Positions 46,420-49,235 of a stretch of 64,000 bases of DNA are shown in pieces. The position numbers and the translations under genes were made by a program. Origin of the DNA: Lelliottia wanjuensis (GTDB lineage: Bacteria > Pseudomonadota > Gammaproteobacteria > Enterobacterales > Enterobacteriaceae); NCBI RefSeq assembly GCF_030238365.1, contig NZ_JASSOT010000048.1:62001-126000 (forward strand), given 5' to 3'. The notes beneath the pieces were generated by a model. It had not been told where the DNA came from and did not search any database. It saw only the letters and a list, made by a program, of their open reading frames with translations. Position 1 is the stretch's first letter, and the number at the start of each line of letters is the position of its first letter.

Positions 46420-46583
46420 CAGCATATATACATTTCAAATTAGCTATTCCAAAATCATAAAAATGGGGTATGTTTTAGCAGAGTGTGCTGAAAAAGCGCG
46501 AGCAGCAGACCAATAATTGAAATAAAGCGCTACACAACAACATCACAACAATCGTAATAACCATAATAATGGGGAATCTCAGG

Positions 46584-47684
46584 ATGAATATGAAGGGTAA
46601 AGCGTTACTGGCAGGATGTATCGCGTTGGCATTCAGCACTATGGCTCAGGCGGATATCAAAGTGGCTGTTGTCGGTGCGATGTCCGGTCCGGTAGCGCAA
46701 TACGGCGACCAGGAATTTACCGGCGCAGAACAAGCGGTTGCAGACATTAATGCCAAGGGCGGGATCAAAGGCGAAAAACTGCAGATCGTAAAATATGATG
46801 ATGCCTGTGACCCGAAACAAGCGGTCGCGGTGGCGAACAAAGTGGTGAACGACGGGATCAAATACGTTATCGGTCACCTGTGCTCCTCTTCCACTCAGCC
46901 AGCGTCTGATATCTACGAAGACGAAGGCATTCTGATGATCACCCCGGCGGCGACGGCGCCAGAGCTGACCTCACGCGGCTATAAACTGATTCTGCGCACC
47001 ACCGGTCTGGACTCTGACCAGGGCCCAACCGCAGCGAAATACATTCTTGAGAAGGTGAAACCGCAGCGCATCGCGATTGTTCACGACAAACAGCAGTACG
47101 GCGAAGGCCTGGCGCGCTCCGTGCAGGACAGCCTGAAGAAAGCCAATGCGAAAGTGGTGTTCTTCGACGGGATCACCGCCGGTGAGAAAGACTTCTCCAC
47201 CCTGGTGGCGCGTCTGAAGAAAGAGAATATCGATTTCGTTTACTACGGCGGCTACCACCCGGAAATGGGCCAGATCCTGCGCCAGGCGCGCGCGGCCGGT
47301 CTGAAAACCCAGTTCATGGGCCCGGAAGGCGTGGCGAACGTTTCTCTGTCTAACATCGCGGGCGAATCGGCTGAAGGGATGCTGGTGACCAAGCCGAAGA
47401 ACTACGATCAGGTTCCGGCGAACAAACCGATTGTGGATGCGATCAAAGCCAAGAAACAGGATCCAAGCGGCGCGTTCGTGTGGACCACCTACGCGGCACT
47501 GCAATCTCTGCAGGCGGGCCTGAACCAGTCAGCCGATCCGGCTGAGATTGCCACCTGGCTGAAAGCGAACTCTGTCGATACTGTGATGGGGCCGTTGTCC
47601 TGGGATGAGAAGGGCGATCTGAAGGGCTTTGAGTTCGGTGTCTTCACCTGGCATGCGGATGGTTCAGCGACCGACGCTAAGTAA
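46584..47684 (+). CDS. livJ: Leucine/isoleucine/valine-binding periplasmic protein LivJ
   Basis: LivJ captures branched-chain amino acids in the periplasm and hands them to LivHMGF. The 366-residue protein has a signal peptide ([23 protein letters not shown]) and the type I binding-protein fold; it is nearly identical to E. coli LivJ, including the cysteine pair in YDDACDPK...GHLCSSS. Start ATG 46584 is preceded by GGGGA. It has its own promoter region (46420-46583), AT-rich as in Lrp-regulated liv genes. Confidence 0.96.
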
Positions 47685-47689
47685 TTAAA

Positions 47690-47773
47690 TGCCCGGTGGC
47701 GCGCAGCGATCCGGGCCTACGGGAAGTGCGGTCTGATGCCCTCACCCTGGCCCTCTCCCTTTGGGAGAGGGCC
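47690..47773. repeat. REP-type palindromes after livJ
   Basis: A REP unit (GCCCGGTGGC...CCGGGC) at 47691-47717 and a CCCTCTCCC/GGGAGAGGG inverted repeat at 47751-47771. The second matches repeats at 5.7 and 61.8 kb. Confidence 0.75.
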
Positions 47774-47775
47774 TA

Positions 47776-48379
47776 AAAACGGCAACCTTTGGTTTTAATA
47801 CCAGTCAGTTAAGCAACATAATGAATTTAAATTTATTATGTTGCTTGCTCCAGGACCTTTATGGCATCAGTGGAATTGTTCCGTTCACTTTCGTTCCTCT
47901 GCTTCCGGTCTATCACTCTGCGGTGAACGTGCCAGGGTGGCTCAATCGCCACCACCCTGGCAACCCCGGCTCCCGGCAAAGAAAATCGCCGCTTCGCGGT
48001 GCCCTCAGCTTATTCCTTGCGGCTATCGGGTCGGGCGCGATCCTGCATCCATGCAGGTCGCACCCTCTCGGCGCTTCCCTGCGCCTCGACCCGGCCTCCA
48101 GGAAACGCTTCGGCGATTTTCAGCCGGACTCACGCTCCCTCCAGCTTTACAGCCGTCTGAATGTGGCACCGGTATGGGTCCCCGCAGGCAGCGGGCCGGG
48201 AGGTGTGCGCAGTGCGAAGCACCGATTTCATGGCGGGGCGCGGGGATTGACAAGGGGGCCGCGCAGCCCCCTTGTCACGTTCACAGGTTAAGACGCCATT
48301 ATATTCTGCTGAACATAAGGTGAACGGAATAACCTCAGATGCTTAACTGACCAGCATTACAACCTTTGGTTGCCGTTTT
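47776..48379. mobile_element. 604-bp gene-free element with 40-bp terminal inverted repeats
   Basis: The left end (47776-47815) and right end (48340-48379, reversed) match at 33 of 40 positions (both begin AAAACGGCAACC and end GTCAGTTAAGCA). Inside are nested inverted pairs: TTCCGTTCAC 47879-47888 with 48320-48329, TGAACGTG 47924-47931 with 48276-48283, plus local hairpins (47813-47844, 47931-47961, 48042-48057, 48248-48277) and CGGGTCG/CGACCCG (48027-48033 with 48087-48093). No transposase and no convincing gene; open frames across it are GC-driven. E. coli lacks this between livJ and panM. It could be a non-autonomous transposable unit or a structured RNA. No target-site duplication was seen. 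Confidence 0.6.
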
Positions 48380-48390
48380 GCGTTGAACTT

Positions 48391-48428
48391 GTAGGCCGGG
48401 TAAGGCGCAGCCGCCACCCGGCTTTTTT
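48391..48428. repeat. REP unit acting as panM terminator
   Basis: GCCGGGT...ACCCGGC followed by seven T residues on the plus strand, abutting the panM stop codon. Confidence 0.7.
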
Positions 48429-48811
48429 TAACGCCGCTGCCAGCCGCTCTCCCGCTCCACAAACCCCAGCGCCTGCATAAATGCGGTCATCACCGCGCGG
48501 TCTTCCACGCCGACATCCGCCATCCACCAGGAGGAGACGTCCGGGTTGTCGCGAATCACCTCTTCAATCAGATATTGCCCGACGCCGCGACGGCGGGTGA
48601 TTTCGCGCACACGCAGGGAGTCCAGCGCGCCTTCGCTGCCGCTCAGGGTCACGCGCACCGCGCCCAGCAGACGCTCGTTAAAGCGGGCGGCATAGATACG
48701 GTGAATATCATCCACGGCCAGTGAGGAAGGGGAATATTCCGGCCAGATCTTGCCCAGGTCGATATGATCCTGGTCGCTAAAGGACACCAGACGAAGGATG
48801 GTCAGTTTCAT
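48428..48811 (-). CDS. panM: PanD maturation factor PanM (PanZ)
   Basis: PanM promotes self-cleavage of aspartate decarboxylase PanD and, with CoA bound, restrains it, controlling pantothenate synthesis. The 127-residue GNAT-fold protein matches E. coli PanM (LRVREITRRRGVGQYLIEEV is the CoA-binding loop). Start ATG 48811 gives MKLTILRL; an in-frame ATG five codons upstream is less likely. It lies on the minus strand between livJ and livK, as in E. coli. Confidence 0.94.
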   Translation of the reverse strand: MKLTILRLVSFSDQDHIDLGKIWPEYSPSSLAVDDIHRIYAARFNERLLGAVRVTLSGSEGALDSLRVREITRRRGVGQYLIEEVIRDNPDVSSWWMADVGVEDRAVMTAFMQALGFVERESGWQRR

Positions 48812-49235
48812 TAGCTGCTTGTCCAAATCAGAAAGAATAAAGGCAGTGTACTCAATTTATCTCGCCAGCGGCTTCCCCTTTTTTAAACCATTCTCCAGGT
48901 GATTACTTTTTTAGCTGCGCGATGTGCAGTGCGAAAATGCATGGATCGAAAATTAAGCAGAATTTTAACCTGAAAGGCAGTGTTTTATTCGGCGCTTTGT
49001 ACCGTTATTTTATGCTGCAAACTGCACTTTTATTTGTTTATCTCTGTCGGATTTCAGAATATTATCTTTGCTTAATCGCCTGAAAAATAGAGATTTTAGT
49101 CTGGTTTTTAGCAAAAAACTGCGCTAAACCATTAAAGGCACTGGTAAAAATAGCGTTGTTCATTAAAAGTACAGAATGCTTTTTAACCATAATAAAACAA
49201 AATATATACATCACGTCACGAATGGGGATTCACAG
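48812..49235. other. Divergent panM-livK regulatory region
   Basis: A 424-bp AT-rich gap. In E. coli the livK leader is long and under Lrp control; similar AT-rich tracts are present here, but I could not mark a single promoter or Lrp site. No coding sequence is supported. Confidence 0.4.

Follow-up and report, generated by a model that had tools for sequence, protein, structure and literature searches.

The livJ-panM locus

The window, a stretch of 64,000 nucleotides from Lelliottia wanjuensis, contained between a livJ-like open reading frame and panM (panZ) a segment flanked by the two halves of a predicted terminator hairpin (Table 1). The gene order was the same in E. coli K-12, in line with the E. 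coli layout mentioned in the preliminary description of this DNA. That description had delimited a 604-bp fold-back element with 40-bp terminal inverted repeats, and the symmetry behind it was reproduced by our inverted-repeat search. Namely, the arms 47776-47815 and 48340-48379 (40 nt) were 83% complementary (33/40), and nested inverted pairs were found further in, at 47876-47891/48317-48332 and 47923-47942/48265-48284. The limits of the element were different, however. In the relative G047, which had no insertion at this place, the terminator was intact, and the left and right flanks overlapped there by 12 bp. Compared with this empty site, the true terminal repeats measured 20 bp, and the boundaries shifted to a 564-bp element, 47796-48359; the distal ~20 bp of either 40-nt arm belonged to the target, where they formed an arm of the livJ/panM terminator. 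The uninterrupted hairpin of G047, read from the other strand, was AAAACGGCAACC-TTT-GGTTGCCGTTTT. It is a predicted bidirectional intrinsic terminator between converging genes, and at livJ/panM the insertion split its stem.

A protein-coding element was rejected: four open reading frames inside the 564 bp had no Pfam match at E values up to 1, in keeping with the earlier remark that no transposase and no credible gene were present. A phage origin was rejected as well (phages gave no match, and one core pattern was nowhere matched exactly among viral contigs), and so was a plasmid origin, for which 23 records, several of them chromosome-length and all non-mobilizable, gave a best coverage of 31-34% among the matches listed. 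Scanned for promoters and terminators, the element had two promoter-like sites, both weak, and nothing resembling a terminator. A GC-rich hairpin repeat, CCCTCACCC...CTCTCCC...GGGAGAGGG, adjoined it on the left, at about 47734-47773 of the window; when a similar stretch from a sister locus was searched in three relatives, it had dozens of matches.

Table 1. Features of the livJ-panM locus (positions in the window)
Feature	Position	Strand	Evidence or remark
livJ-like ORF, 371 aa, upstream, reading into the element	46569..47684	+	ORF list; K-12-like layout; the name livJ rests on position
Left part (arm and loop) of the split terminator hairpin; its end is the left target duplication	47776..47795	no strand	intact hairpin in G047
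Left copy of the target duplication, 13 bp	47783..47795	no strand	12/13 identical to the right copy
MITE	47796..48359	no strand	564 bp; duplication and empty-site comparison
Left 20-bp terminal repeat	47796..47815	+	19/20 identical to the IS4 right end of E. coli K-12; 20/20 in sister copies
AT-rich palindrome adjoining the left end	47811..47846	no strand	inverted-repeat search, 94% complementary
Intact structured RNA unit, core and two 3' hairpins	47873..48140	-	aligned in alignment A1
Core of the RNA unit	47960..48130	-	model R1, 208.1 bits; training member of R1
Decayed second RNA unit, divergent	48149..48250	+	model R1, 19.9 bits, E 0.0026 (rough)
Place of missing sequence in the livJ-panM copy	48182..48187	no strand	lacks ~90 bp relative to most sisters, ~170 bp relative to L014, L017 and L021
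Perfect-stem hairpin	48248..48277	no strand	stem sequence differs between copies, pairing kept
Right 20-bp terminal repeat	48340..48359	-	2 mismatches to TAATRCCAGTCAGTTAAGCA
Right target duplication, then right arm of the terminator and T-run	48360..48379	no strand	duplication itself 48360-48372
panM (panZ), converging on the element	48428..48826	-	PF12568 PanZ, 172.5 bits, cut-off 22

Ends of the IS4 subgroup and copies in the genome

The left end of the element was TAATACCAGTCAGTTAAGCA and the right end, read inwards, was TAATGCTGGTCAGTTAAGCA. The right end of the K-12 IS4, read inwards, was TAATGCCAGTCAGTTAAGCA, identical to the left ends of sister copies (20/20) and matching the livJ-panM copy at 19/20. 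Because of this match, the element was most probably a non-autonomous MITE of the IS4 subgroup. The 20-bp ends, the end pattern -AATR...WTW and the duplication length fitted this subgroup as published (De Palmenaer et al., PMC2266710, 2008; Table 1, with duplications of 10-13 bp). When up to one mismatch was allowed, the IS4-type end pattern was present in 42/392 family genomes, with no control match among the matches listed. IS4 itself and its deletion derivatives without RNA cargo (L099, L102, L108, L121, L130, L131) had the same ends and lay mostly at hairpins. Derivatives such as L102 and L108 retained IS4 sequence inside, whereas the livJ-panM MITE did not; its interior was a repeat, here called X, which consisted of two inverted halves and occurred both with and without IS4 ends. 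One 104-bp element (L138, 1417-1520) combined IS4-type ends with a perfect duplication of 11 bp; it carried neither IS4 nor X cargo, and its site was no strong hairpin.

The search of the same genome gave 69 match pieces, which formed 26 stretches with 27 places. Both ends were present in nine copies, counting the one at livJ-panM, with lengths of 527-737 bp and duplications of 10-14 bp. In seven of the nine (L009, L010, L013, L014, L017, L018, L019) BLAST gave empty sites whose left and right borders were both flush to within 2 bp, with G047 as the reference except for L018, where it was G004. The left side of L011 was flush, with support for its right side coming from a three-way alignment only, and the empty site of L012 was not flush in BLAST against relatives. 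The dispersal of the copies, their empty sites, the target duplication and the ends of IS4 type supported the earlier guess of a non-autonomous transposable unit in part.

Among the 79 contigs of the draft assembly, InsG, the IS4 transposase, had no homologue at E 1e-5, and the same query had a match at 1e-30 in 29/295 family genomes. The MITE is no longer mobile by itself. A related transposase in its own genome would be needed for present movement only, not for its origin.

The whole 564 bp did fold back: its RNA fold had an energy of -262.7 kcal/mol, whereas 100 dinucleotide shuffles averaged -197.4 kcal/mol (sd 7.0) and none of them was as good (z -9.3). The self-complementarity seen in the preliminary description was confirmed, and it speaks for an element with long terminal repeats that is mobile by its own symmetry and unrelated to IS4. 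We nevertheless consider such an element extremely improbable. The ends found equalled those of IS4 and the target duplications were IS4-like, the same ends were found on IS4 and on cargo-free IS4 deletion derivatives, and the outer 20 bp of the presumed long repeats were target sequence, as the empty site of G047 demonstrated. Folding back was unsupported as the defining feature. The inner symmetry was not that of a single continuous terminal repeat; it arose because one RNA unit was present in two inverted copies.

Terminator hairpins as insertion targets

The scan for paired ends covered 71 loci, 32 of which were unpaired. From the 39 paired rows, eight were dropped, either at contig ends (L083, L086) or as repeats of places already counted (L117, L122, L123, L126, L127, L136), and 31 sites were left. 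They belonged to full-length relatives of IS4, to its deletion derivatives and to MITEs with X cargo, and were a non-random sample of the best-ranked loci in which both ends were found with at most five mismatches. The 31 reconstructed sites formed more stable hairpins than 3048 random 40-mers, with median energies of -17.3 and -8.6 kcal/mol, respectively (Mann-Whitney p 2e-13), and 25 of the 31 folded at -12 or below, compared with 20% of the controls.

A strict rule demanded a stem of at least 6 pairs, a loop centred no more than 3 bp from the middle of the duplication, and an A- or T-run of at least 4. It was applied to 30 sites (nine from this genome, 20 others with a duplication, and the K-12 IS4). 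The rule was passed by 20/30 sites, against 169/9126 positions of the window and 94/5708 flank positions (1.6-1.9%; binomial 6e-28). Six of the nine own copies passed it. The other three (L010, L013, L017) failed though folding at -17, -23 and -12, respectively, and appeared hairpin-like by eye, as did the failing sites L084 and L085. In the remaining failures (L091, L095, L138, L140 and the K-12 IS4, L043) the hairpin was absent or barely there. Since 10/30 sites failed, this was a strong preference and not an absolute rule. On these statistics, IS4-type elements in enterobacteria chose terminator hairpins as their targets. The target palindrome might be read by the transposase or through DNA bending. 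IS4 has reportedly also been seen in the pheST attenuator.

It could be argued that terminators were not chosen at all and that insertions survived there by harming no gene. Regions at the 3' side of genes are permissive, five of the nine own sites were between converging open reading frames (by a crude ORF call), and selection could retain rare harmless landing sites. However, survival alone would scatter insertions across intergenic DNA, and it leaves unexplained the centring on the loop, where the duplication centre was at most 3 bp from the loop centre in 20/30 sites versus 1.6-1.9% of positions. We therefore consider it unlikely that survival accounts for the pattern.

The structured RNA cargo

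The fold of the RNA unit was examined on the minus strand of 31 aligned left units, and 22/58 of its pairs changed on both sides. There were 139 cells with a change on both sides, against 40 (sd 7.5) in shuffles, and none of the 500 shuffles was as high. Paired cells made up 98.4% and fell to 36-44% once the partners were slid. Because the minus strand had 43 G-U cells against 4 A-C cells, it was likely to be the RNA strand. The earlier guess of a structured RNA was thus matched by a covarying fold within the element. The segment was neither confined to a single locus nor drifting without compensatory change: its copies were dispersed, and such change was present. Divergent pairs recurred, and two good units were recognised by model R1 (effective number of sequences 1.19, with rough E-values) in both L182 (165.9 and 161.3 bits), which had an IS4-type end on one side, and L186 (157.5 and 147.7 bits).

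Judging from position and fold, our best guess for a candidate role is that the RNA gives the genes at a split terminator a stable 3' end. A candidate promoter before the short RNA units was read by eye.

Rfam gave nothing at gathering score in the window between 40000 and 56000, that is, across the MITE and its surroundings. We regard the RNA unit as a relative of the Rfam family TwoAYGGAY (RF01731) rather than a member of it, and the livJ-panM copy was below the gathering cut-off. In the same genome RF01731 had 13 hits (E 0.003-0.27), none of them over the cut-off and all 13 inside X copies; with E values of up to 10 allowed, one of 14 control genomes matched too. In E. coli, copy L041 scored 36.6 bits, below the cut-off of 43, and a match of 49.2 bits, over this cut-off, adjoined the RNA unit at L188 in the relative G064. 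Another Rfam family, AaHKsRNA22 (RF02902, an Aggregatibacter sRNA), matched a module in four sister copies only just over its cut-off (40.2-40.7 versus 39.8; e.g., L014 1459-1550 and L021 1173-1264), had below-cut-off matches in 7/14 control genomes, and was absent from the livJ-panM copy.

Occurrence in other genomes

The core model R1 had matches in 47/159 family genomes and 44/153 genera; at most 17 candidates were scored per genome, so copy numbers were lower bounds. A distant partial DNA match was found in 5375/5426 E. coli genomes, and none of these matches covered 80% of the element. Between asmA and yegH, K-12 had a deleted remnant and strain HS a fuller RNA unit. MITEs with X cargo and IS4 ends were also present elsewhere, with identical 12-bp duplications in G053 and G005 (L144) and with 10/12 in G324, which is from another genus. 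In addition, L143 of G005 had IS4-type ends without a clean duplication, and one-ended MITEs with X cargo were found in G044 and in a Pluralibacter MAG, which we assigned to another genus than the present genome because the neighbouring gene was 84% identical. An orphan structured RNA, present across genomes of the family and as partial matches in E. coli, is hereby tied to mobile DNA.

Some R1 units formed same-strand arrays, as if a larger repeat unit had been amplified (four units with ~637 bp spacing at G066:C1:3256215-3258301, and G207:C1:1789655-1791393). At two places one E. coli strain had an RNA unit where K-12 had other repeats (L042 versus K-12 L080, and L041 versus K-12 L079); the K-12 repeats were REP-like at proX-ygaY and a GAGAGGG repeat at alx-sstT. 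E. coli repeats seem to replace one another at the same intergenic spot.

Units without IS4-type ends, namely the X-only copies of this genome and short single units in relatives and E. coli, would suit a structured RNA gene that was spread by recombination and had its IS4 ends incidentally, and so would the E. coli unit that replaced another K-12 repeat without a clean duplication. On the other hand, the livJ-panM copy and its eight sisters had IS4 ends and duplications. The X-only copies L023 and L027 also lay where relatives without X had a terminator hairpin in the corresponding gap, as if they were decayed MITEs, whereas relatives showed no such hairpin in the gap of L020. That X-only copies are old MITEs with decayed ends fits these observations and is not proven by them. 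Overall, spread by recombination appeared to us very unlikely.

Proposed origin of the element

We assign a probability of about 0.88 to the following reading: 47796-48359 is a gene-less, non-autonomous MITE with IS4-subgroup ends, which was moved in trans into the loop of the livJ/panM bidirectional terminator with a 13-bp duplication, and its cargo is a divergent pair of structured RNAs. The ends, the target duplication, the empty sites, the copies, the target preference and the covarying fold were all observed. As for the pathway, a trans-acting IS4-subgroup transposase would have cut out or copied the MITE and would since have been lost from the lineage or from the assembly. Insertion at the terminator loop duplicated 13 bp of the hairpin top. 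The divergent pair of TwoAYGGAY-related RNA units stands in place of the IS4 gene and would presumably be expressed; of the two units in the livJ-panM copy, the left is intact and the right decayed.

A wider scenario is offered tentatively, and we think it rather doubtful. What IS4-subgroup transposases recognise might be the hairpin of an intrinsic terminator itself, and IS4 ends might have been captured repeatedly by a selfish TwoAYGGAY-type RNA. This RNA would then ride into terminators as a divergent pair, and in its folded form it would become the 3' end of the neighbouring transcripts. If this were true, the insertion would be tolerable, and the conservation of the fold rather than of the sequence would be explained.

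Comparison with known systems

The preliminary description had called the element undescribed. Among open-licence articles in PubMed Central, our literature search found no earlier account of such a MITE or of terminators as IS4 sites; the term applied only within the searches made here, the IS4 ends being known and the RNA core being close to a listed Rfam family. The TwoAYGGAY RNA, as outlined in the relevant part of its source (PMC2864571), has two hairpins with AYGGAY-type loops. The unit described here has two hairpins with a covarying fold and CAKGGATG-type loops, and its full-length alignment was below the family cut-off.

With the IS4 subgroup, as tabulated in PMC2266710, the MITE shared the 20-bp ends, the end pattern and the duplication length; it differed in that it had no transposase gene and its cargo was foreign. 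The word "terminator" has no occurrence in the main text of that article, and reading the arms of IS4-subgroup targets as terminator hairpins is our interpretation, not that of its authors. The target arms described for these elements would then have a simple explanation, namely as the A- and T-runs and the stems of intrinsic terminators.

Palindrome targeting is common to our sites and to IS elements that target REPs. In the account of PMC1525189 consulted here, ISRm22 of the IS4 family was in REPs at 10/10 sites and IS4 at 3/11 in Shigella flexneri 2a 2457T; the targets there were REPs rather than terminators with A/T runs. Another parallel was IS1272/TnSha1 of the IS1182 family, which, in the relevant parts of PMC4923244 and PMC5678879, inserts into palindromes including terminator hairpins, as the MITE did. 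For TnSha1, 3/7 sites were at terminator hairpins (PMC4923244). However, these elements belong to another family and, as described there, make no target duplication and delete part of the target, whereas the IS4-type sites reported here duplicated 10-14 bp. If our interpretation is true, IS4-type elements would represent a second, duplication-making route for transposons seeking transcript ends.
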